IMG/VR virus record: IMGVR_UViG_3300032177_000031
Location: 1 to 39,268 of that record
Direction: 5' to 3' (one strand)
Source of the DNA: a virus
DNA length: 39,268 nt
The notes below the pieces were generated by a model. The model was not told the DNA's origin. It saw only the letters and a list, made by a program, of their open reading frames with translations, and made no database searches. The position numbers and the translations under genes were made by a program. Positions 3 to 30,069 of the stretch are shown here, piece after piece (position 1 is the first letter of the stretch; each line of letters begins with the position of its first letter).

Positions 3-2000
3 TTCCTAGTTGGCAAGTCGATTTACTTTACATCTGGAGTTGGACTTGGGCAATCTTCCGTCATCACAGCCTACAATGCGAATACACGTAATGTGTCGTT
101 CAGTCCTACGTTGACCACAGCACTTGGTGTGAATTCTTCGTACTCAATTGGTCAATTCCAATCGGATTATCGTGGTGAATTTGGAGGTATCTTTGTCATT
201 CCTTCTACTGATGCGATCAGATTCCGAACTGGAGATCGACAGTTTACCTTCGTCGATTCCTTTTCGGGTTCACTTGAGGGGTCGGGTACAAATGGATCGG
301 TGAATTATCAAGCATCAGGTCTCTTACAGACCCTTGAGAACACGATTATTTCCACTCGCGTACCTAGTGTACAACGCACTGTCTTGAGTGAAGCCAAGAC
401 CACCCTGACGAATAAGATCACAGATGTTGCTATCGGAAGAATCCAAGTAGGATACTGGGACCCCCTTGCCCAGACATTCTTAGTCGATCAGACATTCCAC
501 CCATCGGGAGTTCAGATTACTGGTGTTCGCCTGCTCATTAAGACGACCGATCCCAACATTCCACTGCAACTACAACTTCGTCCTGTAGTCAATGGATTCC
601 CGCACTCCTCCGCTGTTATACCAGGCTCCGATTTGGTATTGAACGCAGGCGATATTGTTACCTGTTCTGAAGAAACCTTGGCTGCGAAATATCTCGCTGG
701 AGGCAACCCCCTCGACGATGCCACAATGTACACACAAGCTAATTTTAGCGGACCAGTGTTCCTCCAGCAGGGGGCAGAATACTGTATCGTGCTTATGGCT
801 AACTCCGTGAAATATGCCGTGTACGTATCACGTATGGGAGATAAGATTCTGGGAACTGAACGCTTGATTTCCTCACAACCATATCTTGGGGTGTTGTTCA
901 AGTCTCAGAACTCGACAACATGGAATCCAATCCAAGAAGAGGATTTGACGTTCCGTTTGCTTTATGCACAATTCGACAAGACCGTACAATCGAATGTTGA
1001 ATTCCAATTAGATGCCGCGAATGCAATAACCGCCAATGTGCCTTTGGACACGTTCTATGTTTCATCGGGAAACCTTGTACTACCAAATACAAGCATCGAT
1101 GCGATGTTTGCAACGACAACTGCCGCGGGGGTGAAAGAAGGTAATAAGATAATCCCATTAGATGAAAACATTTACTTCGATGATACGTTGGGTCGTCGTG
1201 TTGCATCCAGTTCCACTTCCTCGTTTAAGCTACGACTCCTACTCTCCTCCGCGAGCGTTGATGTGTCTCCGGTGGTTGATATGGACCGTCTCTCATTGTT
1301 GGGCATCGAAAATCTTGTGAACAACCTCGAATTGAGCAATAGTTCAGTTGTCGTTATTAGTTCCAGCAACAATTGGTTTAGTGCCGCGGGTCTCTCTGTC
1401 ACTATCTCAGGTGGGGGAGGAAGTGGAGCGAATGCCTATATTGCGAATACCCAAATCGACAGCAACAACCATGTTCTCGCCAATGTCGTTGTAGATTCCA
1501 ATGGAAGCGGATACACGTCCTCACCAACGATCACGATTTCGGGAAACAGCAGCATCACCGCAAATATTCAGTGCATTGGAGAGGATCGTTCTTCGGGTGG
1601 ACCCGCGTTTGCCCGTTATATCACACGCAAAGTCACATTGGCTGATGGATTGGATGCAGGAGATTTCCGTGTATTCTTCGCAGCGTACAAACCCTCTACC
1701 GCGAATATCTATGTCTACTATAAGATTCTTTCCTCGGATGATGCTGATGTGTTCGATAACAAGGGCTACCAACTCATGACGATTATTCAGGGCGCTAATA
1801 ACTTGTCCCTGAACCAGGACGACGAGAAGGACTTTGTGTATGCCCCAGGTACGGGAAATGTCTCGGACAATCGGGTCCAGTATGGCTCGTTTGTGAGTTT
1901 CAAATACTTTGCCGTGAAGATCGTCATGACATCGACGGATACGACTAAGGCGCCCCGAATCAGAGATTTCCGAGTTGTGGCGCTTCCATCTCTTTCATAG
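3..2000 (+). CDS. DUF4815-type virion/tail structural protein, 5' truncated
   Basis: The reading frame is open to the left edge (first full codon at base 3), so the protein is cut by the window; the GTG at 93 is probably internal. Counting from that GTG, residues about 120-300 carry the motif WDPLAQTFLVD, then a beta-rich stretch with LRPVVNGFP, LQQGAEYCIVLMANS and YAVYVSRMG. From memory these are hallmarks of the DUF4815 structural proteins of T4-like cyanophages. The rest is beta-rich, with a Gly/Ser segment and a C-terminal beta-sandwich ending in KAPRIRDFRVVAL. It lies where T4 has baseplate and fibre genes 10-12, so a baseplate-peripheral or fibre-attachment role is inferred. The family call is fairly secure and the exact role is not. 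Confidence 0.75.
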   Translation, partial: FLVGKSIYFTSGVGLGQSSVITAYNANTRNVSFSPTLTTALGVNSSYSIGQFQSDYRGEFGGIFVIPSTDAIRFRTGDRQFTFVDSFSGSLEGSGTNGSVNYQASGLLQTLENTIISTRVPSVQRTVLSEAKTTLTNKITDVAIGRIQVGYWDPLAQTFLVDQTFHPSGVQITGVRLLIKTTDPNIPLQLQLRPVVNGFPHSSAVIPGSDLVLNAGDIVTCSEETLAAKYLAGGNPLDDATMYTQANFSGPVFLQQGAEYCIVLMANSVKYAVYVSRMGDKILGTERLISSQPYLGVLFKSQNSTTWNPIQEEDLTFRLLYAQFDKTVQSNVEFQLDAANAITANVPLDTFYVSSGNLVLPNTSIDAMFATTTAAGVKEGNKIIPLDENIYFDDTLGRRVASSSTSSFKLRLLLSSASVDVSPVVDMDRLSLLGIENLVNNLELSNSSVVVISSSNNWFSAAGLSVTISGGGGSGANAYIANTQIDSNNHVLANVVVDSNGSGYTSSPTITISGNSSITANIQCIGEDRSSGGPAFARYITRKVTLADGLDAGDFRVFFAAYKPSTANIYVYYKILSSDDADVFDNKGYQLMTIIQGANNLSLNQDDEKDFVYAPGTGNVSDNRVQYGSFVSFKYFAVKIVMTSTDTTKAPRIRDFRVVALPSLS

Positions 2001-2007
2001 GAATGAT

Positions 2008-2244
2008 ATGATAAATACTGTCCAGATAGAGAATAACAGCGATTTAGTGCGTGATATGAATTCGAAGGCTATCATCAGCACGGATGCCATAGGGCTTGGA
2101 CGCTATAAAGAACAGCGCCGCAAGGTACTCGAACAGCGTCATGAGTCTCAAGAAACAAAGAAACGACTCCAAATGATTGAGGGGGAGTTGTCCTCACTGA
2201 AACAAACTATCCGTGAACTTGTAGGTATGAGGAGTAAGAGCTAA
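2008..2244 (+). CDS. conserved small protein of the T4-like structural cassette (78 aa)
   Basis: The start is ATG 2008, preceded by AGGA six bases upstream; a longer frame from TTG 1975 would overlap the previous gene and lacks this ribosome site. The protein has a motif, LVRDMNSKAIISTD, followed by a charged helix of about 45 residues (RYKEQRRKVLEQRH to LKQTIREL) with heptad-like spacing, so a short coiled coil is likely. Small proteins with a VRD...AI.NTD motif occur in the structural region of marine T4-like phages (from memory), with no function I can name. Its stop overlaps the next fibre start (TAATG), suggesting translational coupling and perhaps a fibre-assembly or attachment role, which is inference. 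Confidence 0.65.
   Translation: MINTVQIENNSDLVRDMNSKAIISTDAIGLGRYKEQRRKVLEQRHESQETKKRLQMIEGELSSLKQTIRELVGMRSKS
2010..2017 (+). promoter_or_regulatory. possible late promoter motif (GATAAATA)
   Basis: GATAAATA matches seven of eight positions of the T4 late consensus TATAAATA. It overlaps the first codons of the 78-aa gene (ATG ATA AAT ACT), so it may be a by-product of coding. If active, it would initiate about 230 bases upstream of the first fibre gene. Confidence 0.3.
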
Positions 2245-4502
2245 TGTCTATCGGACAAATTACAACAGCGAACACTTTCGGACAGCTTATTACCGCCGTT
2301 GCGGCGATGATTGCTGTGGCGAACAACCTCACGGATGGACCTCAAGTCACGTCCAATTCCGCATGGACGTACACGAACCCAGGTGTTGGAATCAATGTCG
2401 GCAACACGGCACTTATTAAAACCGCAAACATTCAGTTCATCAATTCGGGATTTGCGAACATCGTATCGGGGAACATTGCGAGCATCAATACTTCGTCTGC
2501 GAATATCACGACGATCAATGCGGTCAATGAATTCGTGACAACGCTGTGGGGCACTGAGTATCACACAGCGAACGCGAATGTCTCAGGACTCTTGCAGGTC
2601 AGCGACCGTATGAATGTGTTCTCTGCAAACATTGAGTCTGCGAACATCTCTACTATCAGTATCACGACTCTCTCTGTAACTCAAATGACTGTTCCAGTCT
2701 TGAATGCGTCATTTGCGAACGTGACTACACTTTCAGTTAGTGGGACTTCGCAGCACACGGCCATTATCGCTACACTCGCCACAATAACTACTGCCAATAT
2801 CACGGGAGAAACCGTAGCTACCTCGAATGTTTCAGTATCTAACATCACAACACTAACTGTAGGTACACTGAACACATCTTCAGCAAATCTAACGCAAATT
2901 ACAACACCGGTCCTCAATGCCTCATTTGCGAACCTCACCTCAGCGAATATCGTATCTCAGAATACATCGTCCCTGAATGTATCAAATAGTTTTTTTGCGA
3001 CATTGAATGCGTCATCGGCGAATCTCACAACAGGTACAATGTCAGCGAACCCAACGGTGAATCTTGGTATTTCGACAAAGAACTATGTCGATACAGGAGC
3101 CGGTGGAAATCTTGTAAGTAAGATCACGTTTGGAGCGAAGGGTGACCTTATAGGAGGGACTGGGGCTAATACGTTCCTTGCTCTTGCTGCTGGTTCGAAT
3201 GGTCAATCCCTTGTCATTGATACACAAACCACAACAGGAATGCGATGGGCGACCCGTGGTCCATCACAAACGTTCCGTGGTCTGTCATTACAAACAGCAG
3301 TCAACGATTTTTCTAAATCCAATGCAAACAATATCATTCTCGAACATGTTGATGAAATTGTCATGGATGATGGAGAAGTGGTCACAGGATGGACGGACAA
3401 GAGCTTGATTATCAACACTGCTAATGCGAGCGGAAATATCGGTGGATTAGACACAGGTTCCATGATAGCAAACACATGGTATGAAATGTATGCAATTCGT
3501 AAGCGAGTTGATGGTACGAAGGGATTCATTATTCACCGAGCGTTGGATCGATACGTAGATCAAAATACTGCGGGAGTTGCACAATTCGCACATAACATCA
3601 CGGTAGCCGTCAACAAAGCTACATCACCCAACGTTCGTGTGGCGCAAAGTTTTGTGGCAAATGTATCGGGACCGGTGACGGGCATTGAAATTCGAGCATT
3701 CAAAACAGGATCACCAGTCGGAAACGTGTGGATTCAATTGCATAGTAACACGGCTGGGAGCCCAGGAGCTTCCGCTCTATCAATTAGTCGTAAATATGAT
3801 GTCAGTAGAATGGCCGCTAGTACTCACTATCCAATTCGATTTGTATTTGATTCAACATCGAACGTAGTTGCAGGTACATCCTATTTTGGTGTGGCTCAGA
3901 CTGACTTCACAGCCAGTGACACCAACTTTATCACCTTGGAAGGGTCCGCCGTATCCTACTTCAACGGAGTTGCCAAGGGCAACACAGGAGCAGCGTGGGT
4001 CGATCTGTCTCCTGGAGTGGGAACACTGATTTTCAGAGAATATGTGGAAGCCAACAGTACTTCGCTGACCTTCCCCGCTGGGTATGACCAGAAGTGTTTG
4101 GTGAGTTATGTATCAACTGATGCGTTCGGAAAACTTAAAGAATTCTCCCAACGGGACAGAACAATCACTTGCCCACTTACGTATCAATGGGCGGGTTATG
4201 CGGCTCTTGCAACAGATAAAGAGGTTGCGGACCTCAACTTTGTGGTTCCTCCAGTTCAGTGTTTGGTATCTTTCATGTTCCTCTCAACGGGTATCAATTC
4301 GATGGCTGCGGGCCGATTCCATGCTATAGATTTAATCAACGCAATCGCGGAAGGGATAGGGGGTGGGGGTAACTTTGGTGGTGCAACAGCAGGGGGAACA
4401 ACTCCTACGACTTGGGCTCCTATGTGGGTGGAACATCAGGGGATCAATATGCGAGTGCCCACTACACCCTGCAAGGCATATCCTGTGAACATCACCTTCT
4501 AA
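2244..4502 (+). CDS. tail fibre protein, paralogue 1 of 4 (752 aa)
   Basis: Residues about 50-270 form a low-complexity shaft of short pseudo-repeats built on SANITTI/NASFANVTTL, typical of trimeric fibre shafts. Residues about 267-282 carry NPTVNLGISTKNYVD, then a KGDLIGGTG..TFLALAAG segment common in phage fibres. From about 346 comes the body shared with the next three genes: RGLSLQT, EIVMDDGEVVTGW (about 370), WYEMYAIR (about 412), a jelly-roll-like VAQSFVANVSGPVTGIEI (about 466) and PAGYDQKCLVSYVS (about 612). The N-terminus differs from the three paralogues, so it may attach elsewhere. ATG 2244 overlaps the previous stop, and GGAG lies about 10 bases upstream. A receptor-binding role is inferred; the fibre class is well supported. 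Confidence 0.8.
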   Translation: MSIGQITTANTFGQLITAVAAMIAVANNLTDGPQVTSNSAWTYTNPGVGINVGNTALIKTANIQFINSGFANIVSGNIASINTSSANITTINAVNEFVTTLWGTEYHTANANVSGLLQVSDRMNVFSANIESANISTISITTLSVTQMTVPVLNASFANVTTLSVSGTSQHTAIIATLATITTANITGETVATSNVSVSNITTLTVGTLNTSSANLTQITTPVLNASFANLTSANIVSQNTSSLNVSNSFFATLNASSANLTTGTMSANPTVNLGISTKNYVDTGAGGNLVSKITFGAKGDLIGGTGANTFLALAAGSNGQSLVIDTQTTTGMRWATRGPSQTFRGLSLQTAVNDFSKSNANNIILEHVDEIVMDDGEVVTGWTDKSLIINTANASGNIGGLDTGSMIANTWYEMYAIRKRVDGTKGFIIHRALDRYVDQNTAGVAQFAHNITVAVNKATSPNVRVAQSFVANVSGPVTGIEIRAFKTGSPVGNVWIQLHSNTAGSPGASALSISRKYDVSRMAASTHYPIRFVFDSTSNVVAGTSYFGVAQTDFTASDTNFITLEGSAVSYFNGVAKGNTGAAWVDLSPGVGTLIFREYVEANSTSLTFPAGYDQKCLVSYVSTDAFGKLKEFSQRDRTITCPLTYQWAGYAALATDKEVADLNFVVPPVQCLVSFMFLSTGINSMAAGRFHAIDLINAIAEGIGGGGNFGGATAGGTTPTTWAPMWVEHQGINMRVPTTPCKAYPVNITF

Positions 4503-20281: not shown

Positions 20282-21250
20282 ATGGCGTCCATTGAAACAA
20301 GACAACAGTTCATCGATTACTGTAAACGCAGACTTGGGCAACCAGTCATTGACATCAATGTTGATGATGACCAAGTCGATGATAGGGTTGATGAAGCACT
20401 AGAATTTTGGACGGATTATCATTATGATGGAACAGAAAAGCTCTATCTCAAGCACAAGATTACTGAAGCAGATTTGAGAAATAAGTATCTCCAAATACCC
20501 GATAAGATCATTGGGATCAGCGGAGTGATGCCATTCGACGATTCTGCCTCCTCTGTGAATATGTTCGATCTTCGCTATCAGTTGAGGCTGCACGATCTTT
20601 ATGACTTTACAAGCGTCAGTTACGTCAGTTATGAAATCACAATGCAGCACTTGAGAACGCTGAATCTTCTCTTCTCTGGTACTCCACAATTCAGATTTCA
20701 GCGTCATAGAAACAGATTGATGCTCGACATCAATTGGGAGATGGACCTGAATCTCGGAACCTATGTCATTCTAGAATGCTACGGAAAGATTGTCGGTGAT
20801 AAATTCACACTACCAACTACAGTGAGTGTCGCAGCAGGATCAAGCATCGTGACTGGTGCTGCGGGAACAGAGTTTGACCGATACTTCATTTCTGGGGATG
20901 AAGTCTTCATCACAACGGCGGGTGGGAACGTGGCGACAACGGTTCAGGGAATTTCCTCAAATTTGTCCATGAATACCATGACGACGTTTGCAAGTACGGA
21001 AACGGGGCTTACAGCTTATCAGTTGGGAAATAGTGACGTGTGGGGGGACCGTGTATTGAAGGATTTGGGAACCGCATTTATCAAGCGTCAATGGGGGGAA
21101 AATCTTAAGAAGTTCGGAAACATTATGTTGCCAGGTGGAACGACTTTGAATGGACAGCAAATTTACAATGAAGCTGTGGCAGATATCGAAAAAATGAAGC
21201 AAGAGTTTATTGGTTTGAACACCCTTCCGAATGATTTTTACATAGGATAG
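20282..21250 (+). CDS. 13: neck protein gp13
   Basis: The N-terminus (FIDYCKRRLGQPVIDINVDD, DRVDEALEFWTDYHYDGTEK) and the block from DKIIGISGVMPFDD to RNRLMLDINWEMDLNLG are those of T4 gp13-type neck proteins; 322 residues compares with about 309 in T4. In T4, gp13 and gp14 form the neck that seals the filled head and joins it to the tail. An insertion around residues 185-245 (VSVAAGSSIVTGAAGTEFDR) looks like an added beta domain. The consensus late promoter and the purine-rich site upstream fit strong late expression. The next gene, iscA, starts within two bases of its stop. Confidence 0.9.
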   Translation: MASIETRQQFIDYCKRRLGQPVIDINVDDDQVDDRVDEALEFWTDYHYDGTEKLYLKHKITEADLRNKYLQIPDKIIGISGVMPFDDSASSVNMFDLRYQLRLHDLYDFTSVSYVSYEITMQHLRTLNLLFSGTPQFRFQRHRNRLMLDINWEMDLNLGTYVILECYGKIVGDKFTLPTTVSVAAGSSIVTGAAGTEFDRYFISGDEVFITTAGGNVATTVQGISSNLSMNTMTTFASTETGLTAYQLGNSDVWGDRVLKDLGTAFIKRQWGENLKKFGNIMLPGGTTLNGQQIYNEAVADIEKMKQEFIGLNTLPNDFYIG

Positions 21251-23668: not shown

Positions 23669-24136
23669 ATGAATTTGAATGAGATACTTGATGTGGAGTT
23701 TCCTATACCCCAGGCACAGAATGCGAACATAGTTGTTGTCCCTACACCGGATGTCTCTGCAAGCACGAATAACTCTATCCAAGCCGATGCGCTGGAAGCA
23801 CGAAGGAACGTCCGACAACTGATTGCCCAAGGAACAACAGCGATCACAGAACTTCTTGAGATTGCCCGCGAGGTAAGAACGCCCCGCTCCTATGAAGTTA
23901 TCAGCAATATGCTCAAATCACTCTCTGAACTCAGTCATGATCTGATGATTGTCCATCAGCAGGAAGCATTGTTAGTCGAACCACCAACAACCTCAAAAGA
24001 GACTGGCGTTCATATTGAACAAGCCGTTTTTATAGGTTCCACTGCGGACCTTCAGGATATTATTAAACTAAAAAGAGAACTGAAGTATGCCAACAACGTC
24101 GTCGAAGCCGAAGTCAGTTCCAAAACTGACATTTAA
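23669..24136 (+). CDS. 16: small terminase subunit gp16
   Basis: The product (155 aa) has a helical core (ALEARRNVRQLIAQGTTAIT, ELLEIAREVRTPRSYEVISN, LKSLSELSHDLMIVHQQEAL) typical of T4 gp16-type small terminases, which form rings on concatemeric DNA and regulate gp17. Length is close to T4 gp16 (164). GGGTGA lies four bases before ATG 23669, another use of a GGTGA-type ribosome site. The last 50 bases overlap gene 17 in another frame, as expected for coupled terminase subunits. Confidence 0.9.
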   Translation: MNLNEILDVEFPIPQAQNANIVVVPTPDVSASTNNSIQADALEARRNVRQLIAQGTTAITELLEIAREVRTPRSYEVISNMLKSLSELSHDLMIVHQQEALLVEPPTTSKETGVHIEQAVFIGSTADLQDIIKLKRELKYANNVVEAEVSSKTDI

Positions 24137-26795
24137 GATACGTCCAGTTCAGGAGAAGTTCTATCTCAAAAATCCACGACTGAAGCGAGTCGGGGTTCAA
24201 GAGGAATTTTCGCAGGTCCAAATCAACGAATGGATCAAGTGTAGTCATGATCCCGTCTATTTCATCACAAAGTATTGTCAGATTGTCCACGTCGACCGCG
24301 GCGTAATTCCCTTTGAGATGTATGATTTTCAAAAGGAAATCATTGAAACGTATTTCATCGAACGCAAAGTCATTGTCAAACTTCCTCGTCAGATGGGTAA
24401 GGCGCTAGATATTAGTACACCCATACTCACTATCAATGGATTCAAACCTCTCAGTGACATTTCTGTGGGGGATCATATATTTGGAGCCGATGGAAAACCT
24501 ACGAGAGTAACCTTCATCACCGAGGTTATGACCGGTAGACCATGTTATGAAGTACGTTTTAGCAATGGAGACGCGATCAATGCAGATGCGGAACACCTCT
24601 GGACGGTTCATTCGAGCAATTGGGATGGAAGGGAGAAAATATTAACTACTGAGGAATTGCAACCATACCTCACTCATACCAATAAACCCTACATAAATTT
24701 TACTTCGGCTGTAGAATTTCCTACAAAAGGTATTCCATTACCCATTGACCCCTATATTTTGGGAGTGTGGTTAGGAGATGGAAATTCGTGGGATTCAAGA
24801 ATAACATGCCATAAGGATGATTTTTCCCACTATCAGCAAACTATGGAATTTCTATCCACTTACACGGATAAAAGAAATGATAATGTGCTTACGGCAAACA
24901 TCAAGAACCTGCATAAGAAATTAAGGCTTAATCAGTTGCTGGGCAATAAACACATTCCGCATAATTATATGTTTGCGACACAAAAAGACAGAATTTTATT
25001 GTTACAGGGGTTGATGGACACGGATGGTAGTGTTACAAATAAACAAGGAACGTGTCAGTGGTATCAAAAACGAAAGCACCTCATTGAATCATTCAGAACG
25101 CTATTATCTTCTTTGGGAGTCAAATCCACCCTACATAGCAAGATTGTTAAAGGAGAAACGTACTATACAGTTACCTTCATGCCTAAATTTCCTGTATTTT
25201 CTCTTGAAAGGAAATCTAAGAAGCAGCGATATCTTAATCATCCAAAAAACACAAGACTCTATCTTTCATCCATCACCCCAATAAATAGCACACCAGTTCG
25301 TTGCCTACAGGTAGATAATGAGTCTCATCTGTTTCTTGCTGGTTCCACTCTCATACCGACCCACAATACGACAACGACAGCGGCGTTCTTCCTCTGGTAT
25401 ATCCTATTTCAGAAACATAAAGTCTGTGCAATCCTGGCGAACAAGGCTCCAATCGCTCAAGAAATTCTTGGCAGAATTCAACTCATGTACGAGAATATAC
25501 CCTCCTTTATTCAGCAGGGTATTGTAGAATGGAACAAGCGATCCATCACCCTTGAGAATGGATCACGTATTCTCGCCGCGGCGACCAGTTCAAGCGCCAT
25601 TCGTGGATTCTCACTTTCGATGGTGTTCATGGATGAGTTTGCCCACGTCCCAAATAACATTGCTGAAGAGTTTTTTACCTCAACCTTCCCCACCCTTTCA
25701 TCGGGAAAAGAAACAAAAATCCTGATGGCGTCAACACCAAATGGTCTGAACCATTACTGCGAATTCTGGACCAAAGCGATCAATCACGAAAATGACTTTG
25801 TACCGATTGAGTACACCTGGGACAAAGTACCTGACCGAGACATGTTGTGGTTTAAGGAACAACACCGAACCCTCGGTGAACAAAAGTTCCGACAGGAAGT
25901 ACTCTGTGAATTCCTTGGATCGTCCAACACACTCATTTCAGGCGCCAAACTCGCCATAATGATAATGAGTCACAAGCAGCCCATTTTTGTTGAGGGATCA
26001 TGGAAGGTCTATGAGCAACCCAGACATGACCACGGGTATGTGATTTGTGTCGATCCCGCAAGGGGATTGAACCAAGATGCGTCCGCCTTCTGGGTAATCG
26101 ACATTTCTCAGATACCTTACAGGGCAGTAGCACAGTACAGCAGTGCTTCTATTAACCCCATTGTGTTCCCGAACTTGATTTATAATGCCGCGATTCGTTA
26201 TAACCATGCGTTTGTTCTCGTAGAAATCAACGATAACGGACAGCAGATCGTGGATATGCTGCATTATGACTTAGAGTATGAAAACATCTTCAAACTCGAA
26301 AGCTCACAGAAACAGGGGGCCAAGATTTCTTCTGGATATAAGAAAACGATGCGATTGGGTCTCCGCATGACAGAATCCGTTAAGCGCATTGGGTGCCTGA
26401 ACCTCAAGACATTGATCGAGCAGGATAAGCTCTTGCTGGACGACTTTGCGACAATCTCAGAACTCAGCACATTCACTCAGCAGTTACAGACGTTCAAAGC
26501 GGAATCAGGTAAGCACGATGACCTAGTTATGTGTCTTGTTATGTTTGCGTGGTTAGTCACTCAAAAGTATTTCCGCGAATCTCAGGGAGCAGCAATCGAC
26601 ATCAGGAAAGCTCTTGAGGATGAGCAGATGGCCATGACGGAAACGGACCTTGTACCTTTCGGAATTATAGATACGGGATTAGAAGACCCCTTTACCGTTG
26701 AAGATGGAGAACTGTGGGTGACAACACGGGGCATGGATCAGGATGAGATGAGGAATTTCATGGTTAATTATGTCAAAAGGTCGCAGGGTCTATGA
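24087..26795 (+). CDS. 17: large terminase gp17 (ATPase-nuclease) interrupted by an intein
   Basis: This DNA-packaging motor subunit has 902 residues; removing residues 106-427 leaves a 580-residue TerL (T4: 610). The rejoined Walker A reads LPRQMGK-TTTTAAFFLWY. Downstream are GIVEWNKRSITLENGSRI, Walker B VFMDEFAHV (about 512-520), the coupling motif ASTPNGLNHY and the RuvC-like nuclease: VICVDPARGLNQDASAFWVI (about 655), VEINDNGQQIVDML and KHDDLVM (about 809). All catalytic regions are intact, so activity should depend only on protein splicing. ATG 24087 overlaps gene 16 by 50 bases. Confidence 0.95.
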   Translation: MPTTSSKPKSVPKLTFKIRPVQEKFYLKNPRLKRVGVQEEFSQVQINEWIKCSHDPVYFITKYCQIVHVDRGVIPFEMYDFQKEIIETYFIERKVIVKLPRQMGKALDISTPILTINGFKPLSDISVGDHIFGADGKPTRVTFITEVMTGRPCYEVRFSNGDAINADAEHLWTVHSSNWDGREKILTTEELQPYLTHTNKPYINFTSAVEFPTKGIPLPIDPYILGVWLGDGNSWDSRITCHKDDFSHYQQTMEFLSTYTDKRNDNVLTANIKNLHKKLRLNQLLGNKHIPHNYMFATQKDRILLLQGLMDTDGSVTNKQGTCQWYQKRKHLIESFRTLLSSLGVKSTLHSKIVKGETYYTVTFMPKFPVFSLERKSKKQRYLNHPKNTRLYLSSITPINSTPVRCLQVDNESHLFLAGSTLIPTHNTTTTAAFFLWYILFQKHKVCAILANKAPIAQEILGRIQLMYENIPSFIQQGIVEWNKRSITLENGSRILAAATSSSAIRGFSLSMVFMDEFAHVPNNIAEEFFTSTFPTLSSGKETKILMASTPNGLNHYCEFWTKAINHENDFVPIEYTWDKVPDRDMLWFKEQHRTLGEQKFRQEVLCEFLGSSNTLISGAKLAIMIMSHKQPIFVEGSWKVYEQPRHDHGYVICVDPARGLNQDASAFWVIDISQIPYRAVAQYSSASINPIVFPNLIYNAAIRYNHAFVLVEINDNGQQIVDMLHYDLEYENIFKLESSQKQGAKISSGYKKTMRLGLRMTESVKRIGCLNLKTLIEQDKLLLDDFATISELSTFTQQLQTFKAESGKHDDLVMCLVMFAWLVTQKYFRESQGAAIDIRKALEDEQMAMTETDLVPFGIIDTGLEDPFTVEDGELWVTTRGMDQDEMRNFMVNYVKRSQGL
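24402..25367 (+). mobile_element. class 3-like intein with LAGLIDADG endonuclease inside TerL Walker A
   Basis: In-frame insertion of 322 residues between Lys105 and the Walker A Thr. Block A is ALDISTPILT with Ala1 instead of Cys/Ser1. SVGDHIFGADGKPTRV follows, and block B is DAINADAEHLWTV with His65 and Trp67. Block F is RCLQVD with Cys301, and block G is LIPTHN ending Thr320, His321, Asn322, followed by Thr as +1. Trp in B, Cys in F and Thr in G are the signature of class 3 inteins, which start splicing from the block F Cys. Two dodecapeptides, ILGVWLGDG (119-127) and LQGLMDTDG (201-209), with KHIP between, mark a LAGLIDADG homing endonuclease, apparently intact. Confidence 0.9.
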
Positions 26796-29517: not shown

Positions 29518-30069
29518 ATGCGCTATTTACACCATATTGTACCGCTACATGAGTGGAGAAGGAAAATCAATCCTAACGCTACTCGCCACGACAAAGATTT
29601 CAATACCCCCCATAATGTTGTTTGGCTTACACTGGCACAACATGCTCAAGCCCACCTCCTTCTTTTTGAATTGAATGCTTTTACAGAGGACTTTATTGCA
29701 GGAAGAGGACTTGCGGGAATCATTGGGCATGAGGAAGTGGTCTTGGAAGTTTTGAGGATGAATGGCAGGTCAACGAAAGGTCGCAAGAGAACGCCGGAAA
29801 CAATAGAGAAGCAGAGGATCGCAGCCCAAGAACGATGGAATAGACCAGGGCAAAGAGAAGCACAAAGAGCAAGAAATCTTGGTATAAATAATCCTTGTTA
29901 CGGTAAACCCCAATCGAAGAAATCAAATAAAAAGAGAAGTGCCACTCAGAGCGGGGTTCCTAAATCAGAGGACCACAAGAAAAAGATTCGTGAAGCCCAG
30001 ATAGGAGTTTCGAGACCTCAGACAAGAGGGAAACTCAATGGCAATTATCGTCATGGTAAATATACCTAA
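29518..30069 (+). CDS. HNH homing endonuclease with NUMOD3-like C-terminus
   Basis: The product (183 aa) has a compact HNH nuclease at its N-terminus: His5-His6 in LHHIVPLHEW, Asn33 in NVVWL, and His42 and His46 in LAQHAQAH. A basic C-terminal region follows, including KPQSKKSNKKRSA and KSEDHKKKIREAQIG, resembling the NUMOD3 DNA-binding repeats of phage homing enzymes. It is free-standing between genes 19 and 20, which are adjacent in T4, so it is an insertion. ATG 29518 is eight bases after the terminator, with no ribosome site, so expression is probably low. The conserved residues suggest an intact nuclease. Confidence 0.85.
   Translation: MRYLHHIVPLHEWRRKINPNATRHDKDFNTPHNVVWLTLAQHAQAHLLLFELNAFTEDFIAGRGLAGIIGHEEVVLEVLRMNGRSTKGRKRTPETIEKQRIAAQERWNRPGQREAQRARNLGINNPCYGKPQSKKSNKKRSATQSGVPKSEDHKKKIREAQIGVSRPQTRGKLNGNYRHGKYT
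29883..29890 (+). promoter_or_regulatory. T4-type late promoter, perfect TATAAATA, inside the HNH gene
   Basis: An exact TATAAATA lies inside the HNH coding sequence (codons for GINN), downstream of the gene 19 terminator and about 195 bases before gene 20. It is the only good late motif that could drive portal gene 20. Confidence 0.5.

Follow-up and report, generated by a model that had tools for sequence, protein, structure and literature searches.

Intein insertion in the terminase large subunit

The viral DNA analyzed here (IMG/VR record IMGVR_UViG_3300032177_000031, 39,268 nucleotides, referred to as the window) almost certainly harbors a class 3 intein that is both mobile and bifunctional and occupies the canonical K↓T site in the Walker A motif of a T4-type terminase large subunit (TerL; the arrow marks the insertion point). 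The intein is encoded at positions 24402-25367 on the plus strand, as are the other features of the two terminase genes listed below, and comprises 322 amino acids with a Hint splicing domain and a LAGLIDADG endonuclease, corresponding to residues 106-427 of the TerL ORF. This ORF (24087-26795) runs in one uninterrupted frame, encodes the intein-bearing precursor of 902 amino acids and matches the Pfam families Terminase_6N (E 1e-23) and Terminase_6C (E 4.7e-14). The N-extein (24087-24401, residues 1-105) ends with the Walker A residues LPRQMGK, and the C-extein (25368-26795) begins with the Walker A Thr as +1 residue and contains the remainder of the ATPase and the RNaseH-like nuclease. The gene for the small subunit TerS (gp16; 23669-24136, PHROG 445, E 5.9e-23) is situated directly upstream and overlaps the start of TerL, and genes for gp18 (tail sheath) and gp19 (tail tube) follow downstream. 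Both the combination of a Terminase_6 ATPase with an RNaseH-like nuclease and the gp16/gp18 neighborhood identify the protein as T4-type TerL (gp17); the nearest named TerLs of its C-extein, at 47-48% identity, belong to T4-like cyanophages and a Pelagibacter myophage.

Regarding other parts of the window, a 183-aa plus-strand ORF between the gp19 tail tube and gp20 portal genes (29518-30069) weakly resembles homing endonucleases (PHROG 314, E 1.2e-5; NUMOD3 below the cut-off) and possibly encodes a free-standing homing endonuclease. Upstream of the head-completion genes, about 20 kb (93-21250) are occupied by long ORFs, eight of which (93-2000 to 20282-21250) were scanned and gave no Pfam match.

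The boundary of the intein is exact, because three intein-free viral contigs (L004, L006 and L007; TerL 80-82% identical) are collinear with the exteins and break precisely at LPRQMGK↓TTT, i.e. between Lys105 and Thr428. At each of these empty sites, the stretch aligned with residues 15-105 directly adjoins the one aligned from residue 428 on, with no base missing or extra; in L004, for example, positions 1319-1591 and 1592-3016 represent the two adjoining extein blocks. Removal of the intein leaves a TerL of 580 amino acids. The initial annotation had located an insert in the P-loop, separating its Lys from its Thr, at coordinates that proved right to the base, and the alignment with intein-free TerL genes that it proposed has thus fixed both the boundary and the 580-aa spliced protein.

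Class 3 inteins are defined by Trp at B:12, Cys at F:4 and Thr at G:5 (the WCT triad) and by the absence of an N-terminal nucleophile (PMC5222942). To put the residues of the TerL intein into context, relatives were gathered from the phage collection, IMG/VR and GTDB genomes, and 276 distinct inteins were aligned. The WCT triad was complete in 266 of the 276 homologs, a biased frequency since the search patterns partly favored Trp67 of block B. In the TerL intein, Ala1 (24402-24404) replaces the N-terminal nucleophile of class 1 inteins, and Ala is also the commonest first residue among the WCT inteins (209/266). The triad is formed by Trp67 (B:12; 24600-24602), Cys301 (F:4; 25302-25304), which is the predicted initiating nucleophile and is Cys in 272 of the 276 inteins, and Thr320 (G:5). 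The latter is followed by His321 (G:6) and the terminal cyclizing Asn322 (G:7; the three residues at 25359-25367), and His65 (B:10; 24594-24596) is invariant in all 276 aligned inteins. Two dodecapeptide regions contain ILGVWLGDGN with the acid Asp126 (24753-24785; Asp in 260/276) and LLQGLMDTDGS with the acid Asp208 (24999-25031; Asp in 273/276). Hence, every residue listed in the initial annotation, namely Ala1, Trp67, Cys301, Thr320, the terminal His-Asn, the +1 Thr and the two dodecapeptides, is present.

Predicted splicing and the question of redox control

By analogy with characterized class 3 inteins, splicing would start with an attack of Cys301 on the Lys105-Ala1 bond, giving a block F branched intermediate. 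The N-extein would subsequently be transferred to the +1 Thr, and cyclization of Asn322 would release the 580-aa TerL, in which the Walker A GKT is restored. Because the insertion separates the P-loop Lys from the adjacent Thr, it is a sound inference that unspliced gp17 would be unable to bind ATP and that DNA packaging would be gated by splicing; neither normal ATP binding nor assembly of the packaging motor is expected from the precursor. The P-loop insertion as such implies dependence on splicing, not regulation.

It could nevertheless be asked whether splicing is a regulated switch, in which oxidation would join Cys48 (24543-24545) with Cys301 and thereby hold back TerL maturation and DNA packaging. 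A precedent exists in the Msm DnaBi1 intein, in which H2O2 leads to a disulfide between Cys48 and the catalytic Cys118 that blocks splicing (PMC6195587), and in the phmmer alignment Cys48 and Cys301 of the TerL intein correspond to this redox pair. In the same study, Cys48 was called non-conserved, and every substitution of this residue that was tried stopped splicing (PMC6195587). In our census, Cys48 was kept in 151 of the 180 WCT class 3 representatives (84%) from phages and bacteria. It is therefore a family-wide feature that does not single out the TerL intein, and finding it here does not point specifically to a sensor, because its conservation can be explained by its need in splicing, as known from DnaBi1. 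The high conservation rather argues for a general splicing role and is the one testable point that the census yields for class 3 inteins. Cys at position 61/62 was commoner where Cys48 is absent when kinship was ignored (Fisher p 0.004, 60% representatives), but the median p value was 0.25 on the tree. Hence, the idea that the second cysteine relocated from 48 to 61/62 is unsupported once kinship is counted, and this hint does not help the switch either. Collectively, a regulated redox switch appears unlikely, and still somewhat less probable is the full scenario drawn by analogy, in which a Cys48-Cys301 redox trap would delay TerL maturation and couple packaging to redox conditions in the infected cell.

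Endonuclease and mobility

The endonuclease part, described initially as apparently intact, bears out this description, since the two motifs carry both catalytic acids, Asp126 and Asp208, and match Pfam LAGLIDADG_3 with E 4.3e-9; judged from its sequence, the LAGLIDADG endonuclease reads as intact. The fold of the modelled endonuclease matches PI-SceI and I-Tsp061I. During co-infection, the freed LAGLIDADG domain would be expected to cut intein-less terL alleles, of which L004, L006 and L007 provide examples, and repair would copy the intein into the cut site.

The relationships of intein and host gene point in the same direction. The nearest TerLs, with 80-82% identity, are without intein, and the nearest inteins (L104, 61%; L106, 55%; L109, 49%) reside in TerLs whose C-exteins are only 48%, 45% and 32% identical. 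The GC3 value differs between intein (0.37) and extein (0.52), and it is the only compositional sign of a foreign origin, because the codon-usage likelihoods are alike (0.008 vs. 0.010 per codon) and therefore uninformative in this respect. A co-conversion tract was searched for near the site, but the identity to the intein-free alleles did not clearly rise near the junction beyond the normal scatter. As read from these sequence comparisons, the intein is horizontally mobile and has not shared the history of its TerL. The pattern of intein versus TerL relatedness, the GC3 difference and the kept acids are as expected for a homing element, for which cleavage is predicted.

Among the related TerL inteins, two display the full set of class 3 splicing residues while both LAGLIDADG acids are replaced, by Ala126 and Ile208 in L147 and by Ser126 and Asn208 in L167. 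According to their sequences, these are decaying endonucleases of the same family. Such relatives lend some credit to the notion that the present intein might likewise be a relic, dead in splicing or in its endonuclease. However, its reading frame continues uninterrupted across an essential gene, every catalytic position including both LAGLIDADG acids is intact, and a 100% identical copy was found in a second IMG/VR record (L002). Moreover, no second TerL was seen, and a loss of splicing at this P-loop site would be expected to be lethal, so that a relic is very improbable.

Class 3 assignment and related inteins

The assignment to class 3, already proposed from the residues, is well supported by the signature, sequence searches, a tree and the predicted structure. 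Among solved structures, the best phmmer matches were all class 3 inteins (MchDnaB1, 6rix/6riy, and Msm DnaBi1, 6bs8; E 2e-27 to 4e-28), and these DnaB inteins rank first by more than 20 orders of magnitude. The E value of 4e-28 to MchDnaB1 together with 759 tblastn matches in phage records, 715 of which cover at least 80% of the intein length, excludes chance as an explanation of this homology. In a 33-row tree, the inteins with Cys1 formed a separate clade (100/100), away from the TerL intein, which paired with L104 (98/97) inside a 12-row clade (98/98) including the TerL inteins of RaK2, fENko and Synechococcus phage B23. The AlphaFold2 model of the intein reached a mean pLDDT of 96.1, and its splicing domain superimposes on Msm DnaBi1 (6bs8) with Z 22.2 and 1.2 Å over 125 residues at 45% identity. 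Trp67, Cys301 and Thr320 occupy the class 3 positions in the alignment, Ala1 is in line with a class that does not need Cys/Ser/Thr1, and His65, His321, Asn322 and the +1 Thr are likewise in place.

A class 1 or class 2 intein with a chance Ala1, in which Cys301 is not the nucleophile, can be dismissed as extremely improbable, because, although class 2 inteins also lack Cys/Ser1 and Cys at F:4 alone proves no mechanism, the WCT triad is complete, the intein falls with proven class 3 inteins by sequence, tree and structure alike, and the Cys1 homologs Ent3, JD001, Bas95 and ST44 (helicase/TerL) lack both Trp67 and Cys301, having Leu67 and Gly301 instead. The initial annotation had named a class 1 intein with a natural Ala1 as the outcome that would speak against its proposal; this variant was looked for in signature, tree and structure, was not found and is rejected on these grounds. 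Ala1 stands in place of the Cys/Ser/Thr1 that initiates class 1 splicing.

The census also revealed inteins that deviate from the triad. One group (L410-L425, sampled; L431; L097 of Vibrio phage D444; L083) shows Ala1, His B:10, Cys F:4, Thr G:5 and HN↓T, but its B:12 residue is Asn and not Trp, and nearly all its members are inserted at (G/I)AK↓T. This "N-C-T" group possibly represents a sequence variant of class 3; relatives from the same scan (L426, L427, L430, L433, L434, L436, L437 and L439) kept Trp B:12. The inteins of Lactococcus phage 949 (L093) and Lactobacillus phage LfeInf (L100) combine Ala1 and Cys F:4 with Ile or Phe at B:12, the latter phage having additionally Ser at G:5, and are placed outside the WCT clade.

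Comparison with known inteins

The novelty that the initial annotation implied for a T4-type TerL with an intein of class 3 does not hold, because such inteins occur at the same K↓T site in RaK2, fENko-Kae01, ECD7, Synechococcus phage B23 and numerous environmental contigs. The GK↓S/T site is used by 219 of the 266 WCT inteins, dozens of them in T4-type TerLs. A literature search on this combination found no paper in which T4-type gp17 inteins are labelled class 3; the sequences are, however, numerous and public, and P-loop inteins of TerL are already published.

A Hint domain with LAGLIDADG was noted in the TerL of RaK2 and K64-1 (PMC5259590). Both are Klebsiella jumbo phages, as is fENko-Kae01, and all three share the LAGLIDADG domain and the RQMGK↓TT site with the present intein, at 40-42% identity over the whole intein, and RaK2 and fENko-Kae01 exhibit the same class 3 signature. 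Differences concern Met48/Cys62 in RaK2 and fENko vs. Cys48/Asp62 here, and their C-exteins, which are only 27-29% alike to the present one. The gp17 inteins of ECD7 (Krischvirus) and Synechococcus phage B23 are class 3, occupy the same K↓T site, possess Cys48 and differ, being about 40% identical, by sequence divergence only. A T4-related Campylobacter phage was also reported to carry an intein in its TerL (PMC3322345). The mycobacteriophage intein TerL1-a lies between Lys and Thr and was described as a "classic" P-loop insertion; five terminase inteins were shown to splice, and two mycobacteriophage TerL inteins cleave intein-less terL (PMC5050341). TerL1-a and -b share the P-loop insertion, whereas their host TerL is of the Terminase_1 type and not T4-type. 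The JeTaime intein is 35% identical, with class 3 residues and a GK↓T site.

Structurally, the triad and Cys48 are shared with Msm DnaBi1 (6bs8) and MchDnaB1 (6rix), whose splicing domains are 45-46% identical and deviate by 1.2-2.0 Å from the model, although both are mini-inteins without endonuclease located in DnaB. PI-SceI, the yeast VMA1 intein (1um2), shares the architecture of Hint and two-motif LAGLIDADG (Z 26.4 over 310 residues), but it is longer, only 18-19% identical and a class 1 intein with an extra DNA recognition region. The TerL intein changes no concept. It is an ordinary addition to the known, widespread group of class 3 TerL inteins, and as an environmental intein whose host TerL has intein-free relatives that are 80-82% identical, it lends itself to assays of homing and splicing.
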